This document shows positions 19,925-27,134 of a stretch of DNA of 27,255 nt, piece by piece. The stretch is from a virus. Made by a program: the position numbers and the translations under genes. The notes under the pieces were generated by a model, which worked only from the letters and a program-made list of their open reading frames with translations, was not told where the DNA came from and did no database searches. Where the stretch lies: IMG/VR virus record IMGVR_UViG_3300046450_002269, positions 1 to 27,255 of that record. One strand, 5' to 3'. Each line of letters starts with the position of its first letter. Within the stretch, counting starts at the first letter, position 1.

Positions 19925-20003
19925 AGGGATGTAGTTCAGTCTGGTTCAGAGCACTCCGTTTGGGGCGGAGGGGTCGTAGGTTCGAATCCTACTATCGAGA
20001 CCA
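19925..20003 (+). tRNA. tRNA-Pro(UGG) with a damaged acceptor stem
   Basis: The D arm (19934-19952), the anticodon arm with loop TTTGGGG and anticodon TGG at 19961-19963, and the T arm with loop TTCGAAT (19976-19992) are all present, and CCA is encoded at 20001-20003. The 5' acceptor strand AGGGATG pairs only at its inner four positions with TATCGAG; the outer three are mismatched. The strand that would restore the stem (CCT then ACCA) is found at 20491-20497, beyond the HNH gene. The tRNA may still be used with a frayed end, or may be inactive. Confidence 0.8.
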
Positions 20004-20441
20004 ATTAAGTTTGTCGCTCTTGCGTCTATTATCTTCTTTAGTAAGATATTGCAAGTTTGGCAAGGTGTGAAAGCCGCCCTTACTAATGGGATAAATGTGA
20101 TCTACTTCATATCCTTTAGGGCAGTTTGCATAGAACTCTTGTAAGGCAGAGATGTCTTCGTCTGCAGGGGTTTGCTGTTTCTGTTTAGCGTGGTAACGTT
20201 GCCACGCTTCATTGGCAATAGCACGTTTACGCTTGTATCGTTCTTCAGTCATAGGAACTTTACGGGCTTGCTGGGCGCAAGTATGCGAACAGTATAAGTT
20301 GTTGGATTGGTAGGATATGTTCTTTTCTGTTCCGCAAACTAAACAGTTGAAAGTAGGTTTGGGTCTACCACAATGCTTTACGTGCATTGCAAGTCCTTGC
20401 TTATTTTTGAATGAGTTATTACATTTTGTACAATTGTGCAT
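19992..20441 (-). CDS. HNH homing-type endonuclease with zinc-binding N-terminus
   Basis: The 149-aa product begins MHNCTKCNNSFKNKQGLAMH with two Cys/His zinc-binding pairs (a C2H2-like finger and CLVCG...CSHTC) followed by a basic linker and the nuclease domain near residues 110-149: EVDHIYPISKGGFHTLPNLQ and LTKEDNRRKSDKL carry the H, N and K/N residues of HNH enzymes. Such genes are mobile and cut a specific DNA site. Its last five codons and stop run into the antisense of the tRNA-Pro 3' end. I start it at 20441 because the longer frame to 20498 merely translates the antisense of tRNA sequence. Confidence 0.88.
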   Translation of the reverse strand: MHNCTKCNNSFKNKQGLAMHVKHCGRPKPTFNCLVCGTEKNISYQSNNLYCSHTCAQQARKVPMTEERYKRKRAIANEAWQRYHAKQKQQTPADEDISALQEFYANCPKGYEVDHIYPISKGGFHTLPNLQYLTKEDNRRKSDKLNWSR

Positions 20442-20449
20442 ATGTTTAT

Positions 20450-20497
20450 TTATCTCAGTTTGGTAGAGCACAGGTTCGAGTCCAGTCATCCCTACCA
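20450..20497 (+). pseudogene. tRNA remnant lacking the anticodon arm
   Basis: A D arm (TATCTCAGTTTGGTAGAGCA, 20451-20470) is joined directly to a T arm (AGGTTCGAGTCCAG) and a 3' acceptor strand CATCCCT plus ACCA (20487-20497). No anticodon arm and no matching 5' acceptor strand are present. The 3' strand pairs fully with the 5' strand AGGGATG of the tRNA-Pro 500 bases upstream. It is either a decayed second tRNA or the displaced end of the first. Confidence 0.7.
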
Positions 20498-20505
20498 AAA
20501 TAGTC

Positions 20506-20626
20506 AGGGGGTAGAGCTCAAAGGTAGAGCAAATCCATGAATATGTCCTTTGTGGAATATATGGAGAACTAGATTCACTCGAGGGTGAATTGTCGGTATA
20601 AGGTTCGATTCCTTATCCCCCTACTA
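20506..20626 (+). ncRNA. Oversized tRNA-like element
   Basis: An acceptor-like helix (AGGGGG at 20506-20511 with CCCCCT at 20617-20622, plus A and CTA), a D arm (GCTC/GAGC at 20516-20530 with the usual AAAGGTA loop) and a canonical T arm (TAAGG/CCTTA, loop TTCGATT, 20599-20615) are clear. The middle is not: TCCAT/ATGGA (20534-20565) closes a 22-base loop in place of a 7-base anticodon loop, and ATTCAC/GTGAAT (20573-20590) would be a long variable arm. It may be a tRNA with an insertion, a dead tRNA, or the tRNA-like start of the RNA that follows. Confidence 0.55.
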
Positions 20627-20980
20627 GAGGTATGTTTTGGAAGTCCGTGATAATAATTATAAAGATACGGACCGCTGATAAAACATGTCCTCTTTAAGGC
20701 CTGGTAAACGTGCGGCCGGGAGGGTATAGATTTAGCCGATCTATAGTGCTTTCGGGTACACTTTAACAAGAAGTTTCTATTCCAACGTGACAGGTTGGTT
20801 AACTCGTTGACAGGGACACCTTGGCCGGTGTAGTAATGGGACAGCCCCCCGAGAGAGGTAGAATATACGTTAAAGCTCTGCCTAGGCCTTTTCTTTTTAT
20901 GTTCAGGGTAGCTGTAGTGGAAAATGCAATACCGAAAGGCTGGTTGATCTTCTATAGTTGCCCTGACTTCTTAACCACTA
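20626..20980 (+). ncRNA. Candidate large structured non-coding RNA
   Basis: About 355 bases contain no convincing gene, are visibly richer in G and C than the flanks, and fold into successive hairpins: 20626-20693 (5+7+6 bp stacked), GGCC/GGCC at 20698-20717, TATAGAT/ATCTATA at 20725-20745, ACACC/GGTGT at 20816-20831, AGGTAGA/TCTGCCT at 20856-20883, and a stem of about 14 bp at 20904-20965 with G-U pairs. A long-range helix TGGTTAA/TTAACCA (20796-20802 with 20971-20977) could close the 3' domain. The start, end and family are unknown; GOLLD- or ROOL-like phage RNAs also lie beside tRNAs. Confidence 0.6.
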
Positions 20981-20997
20981 ATAAAGGAGTAATAGAT

Positions 20998-21087
20998 ATG
21001 AATAATAATAAATTATTTGTTTTATCTTTTCTTATAATAGCAATCGTGGCTACTTCTGCATATGTGATAGTTACCTTTTACCTTTAA
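20998..21087 (+). CDS. 29-aa membrane peptide
   Basis: AAAGGAG at 20983-20989 stands eight bases before the ATG of MNNNKLFVLSFLIIAIVATS, which continues as a single membrane span to TFYL. It directly follows the structured RNA region and precedes the SelW-like gene. The strong ribosome-binding site makes translation likely; the function is unknown. Confidence 0.65.
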   Translation: MNNNKLFVLSFLIIAIVATSAYVIVTFYL

Positions 21088-21111
21088 ATAAATATCAATG
21101 AAAGGTAACTC

Positions 21112-21333
21112 ATGGCAACTTATAGTATCCGTTATTGTGTTAGATGAAACTACTTACAACACGCCACTAGGTTAGTGAGCGAACTTACACAACACAGAGA
21201 ATATAATTCACAAGATTTTCATTTGATCGAAGGGAAGCAAGGAGAGTTTACTTTGTGGAGAGATAATGAAAAAATATACGATAAAGGTGATAATGATTTT
21301 CCTTCTGGGAATGACATTATCCACTTGCTCTGA
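21112..21333 (+). CDS. SelW-like (Rdx family) selenoprotein, in-frame UGA as selenocysteine
   Basis: The frame reads MATYSIRYCVR, then TGA at 21145-21147, then NYLQHATRLVSELTQHREYN and on to a TGA at 21331-21333, 73 residues in all. With the first TGA read as selenocysteine (U12) the N-terminus is RYCVRUNYL, the CxxU redox site at the end of the first beta strand of the SelT/SelW/SelH family. Later landmarks agree: LxxEL helix, LIEGKQGEFTLWRD (family: G-x-x-G-x-F-x-V), EKIYDK, and DFPS (family GGFP). The length is normal for the family. AAAGG stands six bases before the ATG. Family members are small thioredoxin-fold redox proteins. The Sec machinery must come from the host or elsewhere in the phage. 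The alternative is a nonsense-broken gene with Cys or Trp at that site. Confidence 0.85.
21162..21181 (+). promoter_or_regulatory. Candidate bacterial SECIS hairpin
   Basis: CGC-CACTA (21162-21169) pairs with TAGTG-A-GCG (21173-21181), giving eight base pairs with one bulged A and a three-base GGT loop. The first loop G is 22 bases past the in-frame TGA. Bacterial SECIS elements lie within the coding region just after the UGA, with a G in the first two apical-loop positions and the loop roughly 16-37 bases away; this hairpin meets those rules, and SelB would bind it. Confidence 0.7.
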
Positions 21334-21466
21334 GAAACCAATGTACATGAAGTCGGCTAGCCATACATACATATGTAAAATGGGTTGTCAAAATTATCCT
21401 TCGTTATGGAAAGGTAAGGATAAAATTAAACTGTGGAGACCATACGAATTAAACAGGCGCAAATGA
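21266..21466 (+). CDS. Small putative lipoprotein
   Basis: MKKYTIKVIMIFLLGMTLST followed by C is a lipoprotein signal: two lysines, a hydrophobic core and the lipobox LSTC with the acylated Cys at residue 21. The mature part is about 46 residues with two more cysteines (YICKMGC) and a basic, aromatic tail. GGAGAG stands just before the ATG. The first 68 bases overlap the end of the SelW-like gene in another frame, which is unusual here and lowers confidence. It ends two bases before the TTG start of the next gene. Confidence 0.6.
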   Translation: MKKYTIKVIMIFLLGMTLSTCSEKPMYMKSASHTYICKMGCQNYPSLWKGKDKIKLWRPYELNRRK

Positions 21467-21467
21467 A

Positions 21468-22028
21468 TTGGATTATAAAGACTATATAAGTTTAGATAAA
21501 ATATTAAATGCACAAACTCCAGTAACACAAGAACCAATGGAATTGGTGTTTATTATTGCTCATCAAGTTACGGAATTATGGTTTAAAGTTTTAATACAAG
21601 AATTAACCTGTTTAATTGAAATACCAGCCGATCAACGTTATAACCCAACAATACAATTAGACAGAATAGTAAAAATATTTGATCATTTAATTACATTGTG
21701 GGGAGTATTAGCAACAATGACTCCGGAAGAATACGAACAGTTTAGATTTAAATTAGGAAATGCTTCTGGATTACAATCTATACAATATAAAGAAGTTAAA
21801 GTACTTTTAAATAAATTACCAACACGTTGGAATTATAAGTACAAGCACTATCTTACTAATATTGAAAATGCTTTTAAAAAATATCAGTTTTCGCATATGA
21901 AAACAGCAGAACGAATGATTGGAAACAAAGAAGGCACTGGCGGAACTACTGGTGTAGAATATCTTAAAAAGGCCGTTGATGTTCCATTATTCGATGAAAT
22001 CGAACCCTATAAATGGAAAGGATGGTAA
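21468..22028 (+). CDS. Compact tryptophan 2,3-dioxygenase-like heme protein
   Basis: The 186-aa protein aligns with bacterial tryptophan 2,3-dioxygenase (usually about 280 aa) at both ends: DYKDYISLDKILNAQTP, FIIAHQVTELWFK, EEYEQFRFKLGNASGLQSIQ, and FSHMKTAERMIGNKEGTGGT. Residues that matter in known enzymes are kept: F28, the active-site H32, substrate-binding R93, the heme ligand H143 and T157 in the GTGG loop. About 100 residues between the LQSIQY helix and the heme-ligand helix are missing. The family opens the indole ring of tryptophan to N-formylkynurenine. The only start that keeps the conserved N-terminus is TTG at 21468. It may oxidise tryptophan or a different indole or small substrate. 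It overlaps purC by TAATG. Confidence 0.85.
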   Translation: MDYKDYISLDKILNAQTPVTQEPMELVFIIAHQVTELWFKVLIQELTCLIEIPADQRYNPTIQLDRIVKIFDHLITLWGVLATMTPEEYEQFRFKLGNASGLQSIQYKEVKVLLNKLPTRWNYKYKHYLTNIENAFKKYQFSHMKTAERMIGNKEGTGGTTGVEYLKKAVDVPLFDEIEPYKWKGW

Positions 22029-22864
22029 TGATAATTGAAGGTAAAACAAAACGAATAGAAGTATTAGATGATCCAACCCTAGTACGGATCACAACTAAGG
22101 ATTCCCTTACAGCAAACGACGCCGCTATACAAGCTGATTTGCCTGTAGCCGAAGATAAAACCTCACAAAATTGTAGTGTAATGTTTCATTTAAAAAAAGC
22201 AGGTATACCTGTTGCATATGAAACAAGAAACGACGAAACATCTTTTATTTCAAAAAATTGTAAAATGATTCCTATTGAATGTATTATGCGTAGGCGAGCA
22301 TTTGGTAGTTATTTAAAAAGAGAACCAAGTAAAAAATCAGGTGAAATATTTGATCCATTACTAACAGAATTTTTTCATAAAAATGCAATAGTTGGTAATG
22401 AAATGATAACAGAAGATAAAGCACGAGAGTTATATCTACGTGATGGTAAGTGGACAGAAACAGTATATACAGATCCATTAATAGAAGTTCGGGTTGATTC
22501 GTGGATGCTTTTTCCGCCAAAAGAACCGCGATATGATATGCAACCATTAAAATATATGCGTCCAGAAGTTGATGGAGTAACTCTTGAGTACATTAGAAAA
22601 GATTTAATGATACCTTGTTTTGAAATATTGGAAAAAGCATGGAAAAAGTTTGATGTCGAATTAATTGATATGAAAATAGAAATTGGTATTGACAACGAAA
22701 AACAACTCGTTATAGCAGATGTAATAGATAATGATAGTTGGCGCATTTGGCCAAAAGGTGATCCAAAACAACAGTTAGATAAGCAAGCGTTTAGAGACGG
22801 AGACAAATTGACTGAAATACAAAAAAAATATGCAGTGGTAACAGAGTATACTAAGCAATTTTAA
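22028..22864 (+). CDS. purC: SAICAR synthetase (PurC)
   Basis: PurC joins aspartate to CAIR with ATP to give SAICAR in purine synthesis. The start MIIEGKTKRIEVLDDPTLVR is the family's EGKTK(R) strand, followed by FKDSLTANDA-like KDSLTANDAA, IPVAYETRND, CIMRRRAFGSYLKRE (canonical VVRNxAAGSxxKR), and VIADVIDNDSWRIWP (canonical lADEisPDSxRxW). The length (278 aa) is slightly above the usual bacterial form. I chose the ATG at 22028 because it overlaps the previous stop (TAATG), is preceded by AAAGGA, and gives the normal N-terminus. It ends in a TAATG junction with purF. Confidence 0.95.
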   Translation: MIIEGKTKRIEVLDDPTLVRITTKDSLTANDAAIQADLPVAEDKTSQNCSVMFHLKKAGIPVAYETRNDETSFISKNCKMIPIECIMRRRAFGSYLKREPSKKSGEIFDPLLTEFFHKNAIVGNEMITEDKARELYLRDGKWTETVYTDPLIEVRVDSWMLFPPKEPRYDMQPLKYMRPEVDGVTLEYIRKDLMIPCFEILEKAWKKFDVELIDMKIEIGIDNEKQLVIADVIDNDSWRIWPKGDPKQQLDKQAFRDGDKLTEIQKKYAVVTEYTKQF

Positions 22865-24345
22865 TGTGCGGTATCATTGGAGTATACTCATTAAAGGATA
22901 AAACACGAAATGTTTATCCGTTAGTAATAAAAGGACTGTTGGACTTACAACATCGGGGACAACTCAGTGCCGGAATTACATCATATAATCCTAAAAGAAA
23001 ACGAATACTTCAAACACATAAAAAGAATGGTAAAGTACATGAAGTATTTGAAATAAGCCATCGCTATAAAAGTAAAAGACTTCTAGAAGATTATAGCGGA
23101 CATGCGGCAATAGGACATACACGTTATGCAACTAGTGGTGACAATGAAGACTCATTAGCACAACCATTTGAACGCCCGCATGGTCGAAAATCAAAGTGGT
23201 TTAGTTTAGCATTTAATGGTAACCTAGCCAATGTTGATAAACTAAAAGCAGGATTAGAGGATGTAGGTTATAATATGACTTACGATTCTGATACCGAAGT
23301 TATTATGCACTTTCTTAGTAGAGAAGTGCAATCACATAAGCCTTGGGAAGAACTAAACTTTGTAGACATATTTAAAAATTTATTAAAAGATTTTGATGGA
23401 TCATGGAATATTGCCTTTTTAAATGCTGATGGAAAAATGGTTGCAGTTAGGGATCCCCTAGGCTTAAAGCCTATGTGTTATGGTGTTAAAGATGATATAT
23501 TAGTTTTTGCATCTGAGAGTGTAGTATTATCTAACTTACAAATAGAACCAATTAATTTAAAACCAGGTGAAATGATTATTGCCGAAGATGATCATTTTGA
23601 AGTAAAGAGTTATATTGACACAACAAAAAACAGTTATTGTTTTTTTGAATGGATTTATTTTGCTCACCTAGCATCTGTAATGGATGGAGAATCTGTATAT
23701 CATGTACGAGAAAACATAGGACAAGAATTAGCAAACGAAGAAACAGTAGAGTTTAACAATGATGAGTGGATAGTAGTACCTGTTCCTGATAGTTCGTATG
23801 TTGCTGGAGCAAAATATGCACGAGTAACAGGGTTACCATTTATCCAAGGGTTACTTAAAAATCATTCTGTTGGTAGAACATTTATTGATAATACCAACAG
23901 AGCGTATAATATTCAATTAAAATTTACACATTTACGAGAAGTATTACAAGGTAAAAAAATTATTCTTGTAGATGATTCTATTGTACGTGGAACTACAATG
24001 CAAGCACTGGTAAAAAATTTAAAAGATTGGAGTGGGGCAAAAGAAGTACATTTAAGAATAGGCTGTCCGCCTATTACATCACCATGTTTTTATGGTATAG
24101 ATTTTCCGACTATTAACGAATTATTTGCAGGAGACAAGATACCTGATGCTAGTGAGCTTAACGCAGATAGTTTATACTATCTGTCATTACCAGGATTAAT
24201 GACAGCATTAAATAAAAACGAAGAAGAATTATGTACAGCATGCCTTACATCAAAGTATCCTACTCTAGAAGGTAAAACACGATTTGAGATACAAGTTCAT
24301 GAAAAATCCAGTAAACAAAATGAGCGAGCGAGCATTAACAACTAG
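22864..24345 (+). CDS. purF: Amidophosphoribosyltransferase (PurF)
   Basis: PurF makes phosphoribosylamine from PRPP and glutamine, the first committed step of purine synthesis. It begins MCGIIGVYSLKD with Cys2 ready as the glutaminase nucleophile and no propeptide, then LQHRGQLSAGI, GHTRYATSGDNE and FNGNLAN, all canonical for the glutaminase domain. The phosphoribosyltransferase half has IILVDDSIVRGTTMQALVKN, the PRPP motif. The length (493 aa) is normal. Near the end CTACLTSKYPT parallels the CxACF segment of cellular forms. Its last codons overlap the 30-aa membrane peptide that starts at 24320. Confidence 0.96.
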   Translation: MCGIIGVYSLKDKTRNVYPLVIKGLLDLQHRGQLSAGITSYNPKRKRILQTHKKNGKVHEVFEISHRYKSKRLLEDYSGHAAIGHTRYATSGDNEDSLAQPFERPHGRKSKWFSLAFNGNLANVDKLKAGLEDVGYNMTYDSDTEVIMHFLSREVQSHKPWEELNFVDIFKNLLKDFDGSWNIAFLNADGKMVAVRDPLGLKPMCYGVKDDILVFASESVVLSNLQIEPINLKPGEMIIAEDDHFEVKSYIDTTKNSYCFFEWIYFAHLASVMDGESVYHVRENIGQELANEETVEFNNDEWIVVPVPDSSYVAGAKYARVTGLPFIQGLLKNHSVGRTFIDNTNRAYNIQLKFTHLREVLQGKKIILVDDSIVRGTTMQALVKNLKDWSGAKEVHLRIGCPPITSPCFYGIDFPTINELFAGDKIPDASELNADSLYYLSLPGLMTALNKNEEELCTACLTSKYPTLEGKTRFEIQVHEKSSKQNERASINN

Positions 24346-24412
24346 TATCATAATTATGATTAGTATTGTTGTGATATTTGTTATATCTTTAATAATTATA
24401 GTAGCATTATGA
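24320..24412 (+). CDS. 30-aa single-span membrane peptide between purF and purD
   Basis: MSERALTTSIIIMISIVVIF then VISLIIIVAL is a single membrane span almost without polar residues. The frame overlaps the end of purF and ends in an ATGA overlap with purD, exactly filling the gap between them, which is the packing style of the real genes here. The AATGAGCGAGCG start has no strong Shine-Dalgarno, so translation would depend on coupling. Confidence 0.55.
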   Translation: MSERALTTSIIIMISIVVIFVISLIIIVAL

Positions 24413-25593
24413 AACAAACAGTAACAATAATTGGAAACGGAGGTCGAGAAGACTCACTTCGTTGGAAATTAAGTACCGAAGGAGTCAAAGTTGAATCAGA
24501 GGTTAGTGAGCATTTAACAATTATAGGCCCCGAAGCACCTATTGCGGAAGGACTTACAGACGAATTGGAATCAAAACTTATTCCAGTATTTGGTCCTTCA
24601 AAGTTAGCAGGACGACTGGAAACAAGCAAGTTATGGGCAAAACAATTTATGCAACGTAACGATATTCCTACTGCACATTGGGTAACGTATACACGAGATG
24701 ACATAGAAGAAGTAATATTAAAAACGCATGGTTATCCGTTTGTTATTAAAGAAGACGGATTGTGTGGCGGTAAAGGAGTAGCAGTTTGCGAAACACAAAC
24801 TGAAGCGAACGAAGTTGCAGGAATTTATGCTTCAAATAAATTTAATTCTCCATCAAATAAAATATTAATTGAAGATTTTATTCACGGCGAAGAAGCGAGT
24901 TGTTTTGTATTAACAGATGGGAAGTCTTATAAAGTATTACCATATTGTCAGGATCATAAACGTGTTGGAGAAGGAGACACAGGACCTAATACAGGCGGCA
25001 TGGGTGCATATGCTCCGGCCCCTTTAATGACAAAAAAATTACAAAAACGAGTAGAAAAAGAAATTATAGAGCCCACAATTAAAGGAATGCAAGAAGAAGG
25101 TATTCCATATAAGGGTGTATTATATATTGGATTAATGATTTGCGATGGAGATCCATATGTTATAGAATATAATGTACGGTTTGGAGATCCTGAATGTCAA
25201 GTATTAATGATGTTAATGAAGAGTGAGTTACTTCCGTATTTAGAAGCCGTTGCATTTGAAATATTAGATACATTACCTGATCCTGAATTTCATAAAGGGT
25301 CTGCAATGACAGTTGTTATGTGTTCAGAAGGATATCCAGGTGAATATAAAAAAGGATTTGAAATAGATTTGTGGGGTCATCATAATTTTCAACCACAATT
25401 ACATACGCAAGTGTTTCATGCAGGTGTCAAATATGATGGCGATAATTATATTACTGATGGCGGACGAGTATTAAGTGTATCAGCAAGAGGAAAAACATTA
25501 CAGGAAGCAAGAGATAGAGCATACGAACTAGCCGAAAAAATAAGTTGGGAAGGTAGTTTTTATCGAAAAGATATAGGGCATAGAGCATTATGA
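24409..25593 (+). CDS. purD: Phosphoribosylamine-glycine ligase (PurD)
   Basis: PurD uses ATP to join glycine to phosphoribosylamine, the step after PurF. MKQTVTIIGNGGREDSLRWK is the family's N-terminal loop (GxGGREHAL in most), followed quickly by LTIIGPEAPIAEGL. The ATP-grasp core has DGLCGGKGVAV, EDFIHGEEASCFVLTDG, GPNTGGMGAYAPAP and EYNVRFGDPECQ, all canonical. The N-terminal domain is about 35 residues shorter than usual because the segment between the first loop and the GPEAP loop is reduced, and His of GREHA is Asp. The total is 394 aa. ATGA overlaps join it to both neighbours. Confidence 0.95.
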   Translation: MKQTVTIIGNGGREDSLRWKLSTEGVKVESEVSEHLTIIGPEAPIAEGLTDELESKLIPVFGPSKLAGRLETSKLWAKQFMQRNDIPTAHWVTYTRDDIEEVILKTHGYPFVIKEDGLCGGKGVAVCETQTEANEVAGIYASNKFNSPSNKILIEDFIHGEEASCFVLTDGKSYKVLPYCQDHKRVGEGDTGPNTGGMGAYAPAPLMTKKLQKRVEKEIIEPTIKGMQEEGIPYKGVLYIGLMICDGDPYVIEYNVRFGDPECQVLMMLMKSELLPYLEAVAFEILDTLPDPEFHKGSAMTVVMCSEGYPGEYKKGFEIDLWGHHNFQPQLHTQVFHAGVKYDGDNYITDGGRVLSVSARGKTLQEARDRAYELAEKISWEGSFYRKDIGHRAL

Positions 25594-27134
25594 CAGTAGC
25601 AGTAATAGATTTTGGAGCAAAATATACACATAGTCCAGTGGCGGTAATAGATTTTGGTGCCCAATATACACAACTTATTGCTAGAAGGGTTAGAGAGCAA
25701 AATGTTTATTCTGAAGTTTTTCCACCTAATGTTAAAGCAAACGAATTAAAACATGCTAAAGCAATAATTTTATCAGGTAGCAGATCGGGTGTATATGAAA
25801 TAGAAGCTCCACAATTAGATCCAGACATTTTAAACTTAGGGGTTCCTGTTCTTGGTATATGTTATGGTTTACAAGCAATAGTACATAATGCTGGAGGTAG
25901 AATTATTCGTGGAACTGGAGAATATGGAAACGCAGACATTTATGCAGAAAAAAATTCTCCGTTATTTGATAATTTAATAGATTATATTAGTGGAGCACAA
26001 GTATGGATGAGCCATGCTGATGAAATTGTATCTCTTCCAGAAACGTTTGATGTTATTGCAAGATCATCTAACAATGTTATTGCGGCAGTTAAACATAAAG
26101 AAAAACCTATTTACGGAGTACAGTTCCATCCAGAAGTAATTCATTCACTTATTGGAAAGGATGTATTTAAAAACTTTTTATTTAAAGTTGCACATTGTGA
26201 AAAGGATTGGATTTCAAAATATATTATTGAAGATGCAATTAAGTCTATTAGGGAGCAAGTCGGAGACGGTGAAGTTGTTACAGCAATTAGTGGAGGAGTC
26301 GACTCGGCAGTAGTAGGAACGTTACTACATAAAGCAATAGGTAACCAGTCAAAATGTATTTTTATTGAAAATGGTCTTCTTCGAAAAAACGAAGGTGATA
26401 AAATAATGGATGCATTAAAAAGTTTAGGATTACATGTCGAAAGACATTATTTTGCAGACCAGTTTTGGTCGGTTCTTAAGGGAATCACTGATCCTGAAAC
26501 AAAACGAAAAATAATTGGAAGGGAATTTATTAGATGTTTCGAGAAAGTTGCTGGAGAAGCAAAATTTTTAGCACAAGGCACATTGTATCCGGATGTAATA
26601 GAATCAGGTGCAGGTACAGCGGCAACAATTAAATCACATCATAATGTAGGTGGGTTACCTGACGATATGGATTTTACTTTAATTGAACCAGTTAGAAATT
26701 TATTTAAAGATGAAGTTAGATTATTAGGAAAAGAATTGGGGTTACCAGATACTGTTTTAAACCGACAACCATTCCCCGGGCCGGGATTAGCAGTAAGAAT
26801 ATTAGGAGAGGTAACACACGAAAGATTACAAATATTAAGAGAAGCAGATCATGTGTTTTTAAATACATTAGGTGAACATAAAGATATTTGGCAAGCATTT
26901 GCAGTATTAATACCTAATAAAACTGTTGGAGTAATGGGGGATACTAGAACATATGAAAATATTATTGCATTACGAGTAGTTTCAAGCGAAGATGGAATGA
27001 CAGCAGATTGGTATGATATACCGCATGATATACTTAAAAAATGTTCTACTGAAATTATTAACAACGTTAAAGGCGTTAACAGGGTTGTATATGATATAAC
27101 TTCTAAACCACCAGGGACAATAGAATGGGAATAG
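25590..27134 (+). CDS. guaA: GMP synthase (GuaA) with duplicated N-terminal segment
   Basis: GuaA aminates XMP to GMP with glutamine and ATP. The glutaminase half has VLGICYGLQAI with the nucleophilic Cys and YGVQFHPEV with the catalytic His-x-Glu. The ATP pyrophosphatase half has AISGGVDSAVVG, and the C-terminal dimer part has LNRQPFPGPGLAVRILGEVT and a typical end, TSKPPGTIEWE. The first 16 codons (MTVAVIDFGAKYTHSP) repeat the true start VAVIDFGAQYTQ; a GTG at 25638 would give the normal start. The glycine-rich turn is SGSRSGVYE instead of SGGPxSVYD. The length (514 aa) is normal. It overlaps purD by ATGA. Confidence 0.95.
   Translation: MTVAVIDFGAKYTHSPVAVIDFGAQYTQLIARRVREQNVYSEVFPPNVKANELKHAKAIILSGSRSGVYEIEAPQLDPDILNLGVPVLGICYGLQAIVHNAGGRIIRGTGEYGNADIYAEKNSPLFDNLIDYISGAQVWMSHADEIVSLPETFDVIARSSNNVIAAVKHKEKPIYGVQFHPEVIHSLIGKDVFKNFLFKVAHCEKDWISKYIIEDAIKSIREQVGDGEVVTAISGGVDSAVVGTLLHKAIGNQSKCIFIENGLLRKNEGDKIMDALKSLGLHVERHYFADQFWSVLKGITDPETKRKIIGREFIRCFEKVAGEAKFLAQGTLYPDVIESGAGTAATIKSHHNVGGLPDDMDFTLIEPVRNLFKDEVRLLGKELGLPDTVLNRQPFPGPGLAVRILGEVTHERLQILREADHVFLNTLGEHKDIWQAFAVLIPNKTVGVMGDTRTYENIIALRVVSSEDGMTADWYDIPHDILKKCSTEIINNVKGVNRVVYDITSKPPGTIEWE
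25592..25669 (+). repeat. Imperfect tandem repeat in the 5' end of guaA
   Basis: The stretch encoding VAVIDFGAKYTH and the one encoding VAVIDFGAQYTQ lie one after the other with a 48-base offset and share most bases (GTAATAGATTTTGG is common to both). It is an in-frame duplication of the first beta strand of the glutaminase domain. Confidence 0.85.

Follow-up and report, generated by a model that had tools for sequence, protein, structure and literature searches.

A phage gene of the SelW family with a conserved in-frame UGA codon and a putative bacterial-type SECIS hairpin

A selW-like gene of the Rdx family, interrupted by one in-frame TGA, was found at positions 21112..21333 (plus strand) of a 27,255-base linear IMG/VR virus record, which is probably a fragment and is referred to here in its full length as the window. 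The gene is in all probability (approx. 0.92) a functional phage selW whose UGA12 is read as selenocysteine (Sec) by means of the host's SelB and a SECIS hairpin, and whose product is a redox protein. A SelW-like selenoprotein encoded by a phage had been the core of the original prediction, made from the letters alone; it is now backed by a match to the Rdx family, by orthologues that keep the TGA and by a SECIS that had not been looked at before, with Sec insertion as such being inferred.

Reading frame, family and fold

The frame comprises 73 codons and a TGA stop, and its read-through translation is MATYSIRYCVR-U-NYLQHATRLVSELTQHREYNSQDFHLIEGKQGEFTLWRDNEKIYDKGDNDFPSGNDIIHLL-stop with 73 residues. 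Its identification as selW rests on this translation, the Rdx profile, the fold and the orthologues. Codon 12 (TGA, 21145..21147, plus strand) is the sole internal stop and corresponds to U12 of C9-V-R-U12; it is shared with the two viral relatives introduced below and aligned with the Sec codon of bacterial SelW. An open frame of 74 codons interrupted by a single TGA had been described beforehand: the single interruption holds, whereas the length of 74 counts the final TGA (73 residues plus stop). The good ribosome-binding site that had also been claimed is the Shine-Dalgarno-like GAAAGG (21100..21105, plus strand) six bases 5' of the ATG, and selW of both relatives has a site of its own (GGAAGG and GGAG). 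Likewise, the landmarks GEF, EKIYDK and DFP were all found in the translation, and the TGA does fall on the U of a CxxU motif right after the first strand (E4-9).

For the Pfam and NCBIfam profile searches, U12 was entered as Cys. Membership of the Rdx family, as predicted, was clear with E = 4.2e-11 and 43.3 bits against Pfam Rdx (PF10262; SelW/SelT/SelH) over residues 5-71, spanning the TGA, compared with a gathering score of 22.6 bits. The match to NCBIfam SelTWH_Campy (NF041051) reached 7e-14 and 51.8 bits, which is below the 88-bit equivalog cutoff; judged by these scores, the protein would be related to SelTWH_Campy, yet outside that equivalog. An AlphaFold2 model, based on 44 aligned proteins that had been translated from the window and from retrieved loci, had a pLDDT of 94.6 and the order strand-helix-strand-strand-strand-helix (thioredoxin-like). 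When this model was compared with the PDB by Foldseek, the best matches were all members of the SelW family (2obk, 2oka, 2fa8, 3dex, 2ojl and 2p0g) with TM scores to the query of 0.77-0.85. A viral structure library gave nothing at E ≤ 0.001, the named best matches being thioredoxins and glutaredoxins. No match was obtained for the protein in the PHROG families (best E = 0.29), and a search of 50,697 annotated phage records from INPHARED, with E values up to 1 admitted, gave no relative. Frame, family and predicted fold were thus established, and it is confirmed that 21112-21333 is a gene and a member of the SelW family.

Within viral contigs, the DNA pattern YCxxUNYLxxA led to two true relatives, namely L010 (IMGVR_UViG_3300008735_001255) and L011 (IMGVR_UViG_3300032006_002537). 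Their SelW proteins are 66 and 67% identical to that of the window.

The SECIS hairpin

In bacteria, Sec is inserted at a UGA by SelB, which attaches to the SECIS together with Sec-tRNA-Sec. A bacterial-type hairpin, CGC-CACTA(GGT)TAGTG-A-GCG, lies at 21162..21181 (plus strand) of the window and was recognised by its fold, by a covariance model and by a compensatory change. It has a stem of 5 bp and then 3 bp past a bulge. Its apical loop is GGU (or AGGUU with an A-U closing pair), begins 21-22 nt downstream of the UGA and shows the N1-G-G-N-N2 pattern of the published bSECIS model (PMC13188914). According to published rules, a bSECIS has a loop of 3-9 nt, a stem of at least 4 bp, a G in the first two loop positions and a distance of 16-37 nt from the UGA (PMC13188914); the hairpin in selW meets the loop, stem and spacing rules of that work. 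The energy threshold of the published model is ≤ -7.5 kcal/mol (PMC13188914). The hairpin of the window has -8.2 kcal/mol, and those of L010 and L011 in isolation have -6.2 and -6.4 kcal/mol, respectively. Compared with shuffled sequences, the window hairpin had a z of -1.6 and 11 out of 200 shuffles were equally stable. Hairpin energy on its own is weak evidence for a SECIS.

Comparison with other genes, on the other hand, lends strong support to the putative SECIS in phage selW. The hairpin occurs in the same register in bacterial TGA-SelW genes (approx. 100 among the matches listed). Within 66 distinct bacterial sequences from these matches, 58 cells were changed on both sides versus 15.5 in shuffles (0 of 500), and the covariation signal was lost when the partner was slid by 1 to 3 bases. 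Among the phages, the pair 21/33 (counted from the T of TGA) is C-G in the window and U-A in L010; the remaining stem codons are identical across the three phages and codons elsewhere vary. A covariance model, R1, was built from bacteria only (66 bacterial Sec-SelW genes) and applied to 92,350 bases of phage DNA. It gave three matches at E ≤ 10, which are the three selW sites with 22.0, 21.3 and 17.2 bits. The match in the window covers 21160-21183 and scored 17.2 bits without filters versus 9.6 bits for the next best. R1 also found the Sec-SelW gene of Cytobacillus and had no match in four Cys-SelW genes.

Host SelB would thus bind the hairpin just 3' of UGA12 and bring in Sec-tRNA-Sec, and decoding of UGA12 as selenocysteine would yield the 73-residue protein with its CVRU active site. 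The actual insertion of Sec is very likely, but it is inferred in the absence of expression or selenium-labelling data. Translation might instead begin downstream of the TGA (e.g. at GTG 21175 with a 52-residue product), or the UGA might be passed at a low level by a near-cognate tRNA, in both cases without selenium. The 52-residue ORF from this GTG exists and UGA readthrough does occur in bacteria; still, all three contigs have the conserved residues C9 and I6-Y8 and a ribosome-binding site 5' of the TGA, the 52-residue product would be devoid of the active site and of strand 1, and the SECIS would be left unexplained. A selenium-free origin of the product is therefore regarded as very improbable.

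Phage identity and genomic setting

The contigs derive from relatives of the jumbo phages PA5oct, RaK2 and GAP32 and are fragmentary. They measure 13-32 kb and are probably pieces of much larger genomes, with jumbo size (over 200 kb) being unproven. The window encodes a DnaE-like fragment (PHROG DNA-polymerase family phrog_11127), a GroES-like protein, a DUF3310 protein (phrog_21972) and radical-SAM proteins, and its metabolic genes are a truncated tryptophan dioxygenase and purC as well as purF, purD and guaA, which were named from their sequence. For the window's GroES-like protein and for DnaE-like and PhoH of L010, the nearest annotated relatives are in PA5oct, Paride, RaK2, GAP32, Phosso and other jumbo phages. 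Pseudomonas phage PAC2 has its DnaE-like gene next to the GroES-like one, as does the window. DnaE-like, GroES-like and PhoH proteins are common to the selW phages and the PA5oct/RaK2/GAP32-type jumbo phages at about 38-49% identity; a SelW relative, in contrast, was not found in any of the 50,697 INPHARED records (E up to 1). In the window, a tRNA cluster is followed by a non-coding stretch, selW and an overlapping lipoprotein-like gene. The related contig L002 contains the region of tryptophan dioxygenase and purC without selW on its 20 kb, and selW therefore looks like an accessory gene.

No virion structural gene was recognised on the 27-kb window, and purF, purD, guaA and purC are metabolic genes of cellular type, which would fit a misclassified bacterial contig with an ordinary bacterial selenoprotein. 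Very little credence can be given to this, as the DNA is an IMG/VR record with the phage-specific families DUF3310/phrog_21972 and phrog_11127, its DnaE-like gene adjoins the GroES-like one, just as their relatives do in PA5oct-type phages, and the succession of tRNA, selW and lipoprotein-like gene recurs in L010 and L011, two other viral contigs that hold PhoH or MazG genes. The SelW tree also speaks against it, as the phage proteins form a clade apart from the bacterial ones with 96/99 support and without a supported bacterial sister. The phage protein is only 23-41% identical to the bacterial sequences compared. Approx. 100 bacterial SelW genes (among the matches listed) have a Sec codon that aligns with the phage TGA; these relatives are a sample from one genome-contig scan.

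The small lipoprotein-like gene (21266..21466, plus strand; from the ORF list and alignment A6) overlaps the 3' end of selW in the +1 frame. In all three phages it starts inside selW codon N52 (A-ATG-AA), and its counterparts in L011 (9743-9988) and L010 (115-330, minus strand) overlap selW as in the window. The selW codons W49-R50 provide GGAG(A/G) upstream of its ATG; the GGAGA of the window is the likely ribosome-binding site of the lipoprotein-like gene. A Pfam search with its product gave no match, and the cysteine pairs of the mature part differ among the three phages. Just upstream of selW, a short ORF for a membrane peptide of 29 aa (20998..21087, plus strand) was seen in the sequence. 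Its connection with selW is uncertain, and it had no match in Pfam.

Several further elements surround selW. On the minus strand, an ORF of the HNH type (19992-20498, by inspection) lies between tRNA-Pro and a tRNA remnant with D and T arms and without an anticodon arm; the arrangement resembles a tRNA gene that has received a homing insertion. The approx. 370 non-coding bases at 20624-20990, bounded by AGGCCT...AGGCCT, fold with -114.7 kcal/mol versus -98.7 kcal/mol (sd 5.9) for mononucleotide shuffles; they belong to no Rfam family, matched nothing in the related phage contigs and are possibly an unknown structured phage RNA. Downstream, 21468-22028 encodes a protein of 186 residues whose best-matching stretch is confined to the N-terminal region of tryptophan 2,3-dioxygenase (PF03301, profile 16-155 of 346); it is also present in L002 at 71% identity, so that the short form is conserved. 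It is followed by a purine run of purC, purF, purD and guaA (22013-27134). The L011 contig encodes two proteins similar to flavin-dependent tryptophan halogenases (L145 7853-9430 and 13877-15532, named by inspection) as well as ClpX, IF3-like, small-heat-shock-like, IscU/IscA-like proteins and PEP carboxykinase (by inspection), an unusually rich metabolic load.

Conservation of the TGA codon

Phage selW is known from only three viral contigs of one phage group. In L010 and L011, codon 12 of selW is likewise TGA, and the frame is otherwise free of stops. Relatives with a sense codon other than Cys or Sec at this site and stops scattered in the frame would have counted against the original prediction; the two phage relatives have neither. 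Synonymous divergence after the TGA among the three phages is considerable with a dS of 0.77-1.45 per site, and dN/dS is 0.19-0.36, or about 0.15-0.5 for codons 13-50 alone, which precede the overlapping gene. Purifying selection acts on the part of the frame that follows the TGA.

Other searches of the viral contigs added no further relative. The Cys version of the pattern had no matches there. When any codon was allowed at position 12, four more contigs were hit, all by chance, and L010 and L011 remained the only true relatives. A looser Sec motif, CxxUNY[LF]PxA, hit ten more contigs, all of them chance frames without Rdx sequence. Nothing was confirmed in a scan with the single selW protein, in which U was back-translated as Cys codons, so that Sec genes were missed at the motif; a scan of the viral contigs with the two-sequence alignment A2 gave nothing.

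A single base change (TGC or TGT to TGA) would be sufficient to turn the second Cys codon of a CxxC SelW gene into a stop, be it as nonsense mutation in a pseudogene or as sequencing error, and selW is a small gene on a metagenomic contig. This explanation is already refuted by the orthologues: the TGA is kept in three contigs in spite of the synonymous divergence, with the frame otherwise under purifying selection, so that a random nonsense mutation at codon 12 is as unlikely as had been argued at the outset. In addition, selW has a SECIS, which four Cys-SelW genes were found to lack, and no Cys version was found in the viral contigs. Of 85 ORFs with at least 100 codons in these phage contigs, 35 end in TGA, and UGA is an ordinary stop elsewhere in these phages, which use the standard code. 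Although stop codons are reassigned in some phages, a genome-wide reassignment of UGA (e.g. to Trp or Gly) that would make the TGA a plain sense codon is as good as ruled out, since TAA or TAG follows these 35 TGA codons within 29 codons in every case and selW has 61 conserved codons after its TGA. Taken together, conservation of the TGA, selection and ordinary use of TGA as stop make nonsense mutation, sequencing error and genome-wide recoding very unlikely.

Selenocysteine machinery and candidate hosts

The phage fragments, which are only pieces of 13-32 kb, gave no hit for SelA, SelB-type GTPases or tRNA-Sec; for tRNA-Sec, the gathering threshold was applied in the window and a cutoff in the related contigs. 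Hence, Sec decoding is most likely supplied by the host, with the rest of the phage genome being unseen. A tRNA-like gene of 117 nt at 20507-20623 (Rfam tRNA with 30 bits, uncalled by ARAGORN) is longer by approx. 40 bases, which fold into a hairpin situated between its D arm and the stem-loop CUCGAGG. Its length made it a candidate for tRNA-Sec, but it was rejected as such on inspection, having an ordinary D stem of 4 bp and no rightly placed UCA anticodon loop. The dependence of the phage on a selenium-using host, which had been proposed with the gene, remains an inference.

The host was approached by comparing the metabolic genes with those of 22-24 genomes that had been preselected for Sec-SelW, so that hosts without selenocysteine cannot be tested. 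PurF was closest to SAR324 with 47% versus at most 41% for all others, the top two relatives of PurD were from SAR324 and ClpX of L011 was marginally closest to SAR324. The top three for GuaA were Marinimicrobia and MED-G177, with the nearest Marinimicrobia at 57%, and PEPCK did not resolve a host. Within this set of genomes, these similarities suggest mixed origins of the purine genes, PurF being nearest to SAR324 and GuaA nearest to Marinimicrobia. A tRNA-Sec is present in two SAR324 genomes and SelA in Marinimicrobia genomes. With these conflicting signals, SAR324 and Marinimicrobia may be named as candidate hosts.

Glutaredoxin and IscU/IscA-like genes, named by sequence inspection and in the case of the L011 glutaredoxin also from a match to a PHROG thioredoxin domain, are present on both the L010 and the L011 contig and suggest that the phages control thiol or Fe-S chemistry. 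The redox role of phage SelW is inferred from its family membership; during infection it would probably act as a thiol/selenol oxidoreductase alongside these other redox and Fe-S genes of the phage.

Relation to known systems and implications

Like bacterial Sec-SelW, the phage protein has the CxxU right after strand 1, a thioredoxin-like fold, NYL..A after the U and the G.F and FP landmarks, and its gene has an in-register bSECIS within the coding region. It differs in being encoded by a phage, in forming its own clade, in its signatures IRYCVxUNY and WRDNE and in the overlap with a lipoprotein-like gene. Eukaryotic viruses encode selenoproteins as well, e.g. the glutathione peroxidase of molluscum contagiosum virus. 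Like phage SelW, the latter is a viral Sec redox protein that relies on decoding by the host; however, it is a different enzyme with a eukaryotic SECIS in the 3' untranslated region, whereas that of phage selW is bacterial and lies in the coding region.

A link of phages with selenocysteine decoding is known from tRNA-Sec genes in Basilisk-like phages (PMC6145125) and three wastewater huge phages (PMC10747093). For these, the tRNA gene has been described and no selenoprotein gene, while the selW phages are the reverse with no tRNA-Sec on the fragments. That phage selenoproteins are little described, as had been stated beforehand, agrees with the literature searched: no published phage selenoprotein gene was found, only the tRNA-Sec reports, with most subscription papers and preprints being outside the search. 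The papers found on the Sargasso Sea and GOS, and the reviews, contain no description of phage selenoproteins. In one study, the protein families examined, bar a named few, had no viral sequences or very few (PMC9402790).

A more far-reaching picture is possible, but doubtful at present: a lineage of phages with large genomes would maintain its own clade of Sec-SelW as auxiliary redox gene, host range or infection success would be tied to Sec decoding by the host, and expression of the lipoprotein-like gene may be coupled to selenium supply via Sec-dependent readthrough. This coupling of lipoprotein-like translation to readthrough is a hypothesis only.

With selW, its TGA and its SECIS in three contigs, the selenoproteome extends into phages. 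Previously, the use of Sec was known from cells and a few enzymes of eukaryotic viruses, and for phages, in the papers found, only from tRNA-Sec genes. Phage selW is a trait that should depend on selA, selB, selC and selD of the host and on environmental selenium, and phages are possible carriers of Sec genes between bacteria. As standard annotation splits or misses Sec genes, more of them may hide in virus collections, where they could be searched for by combining SECIS and motif.
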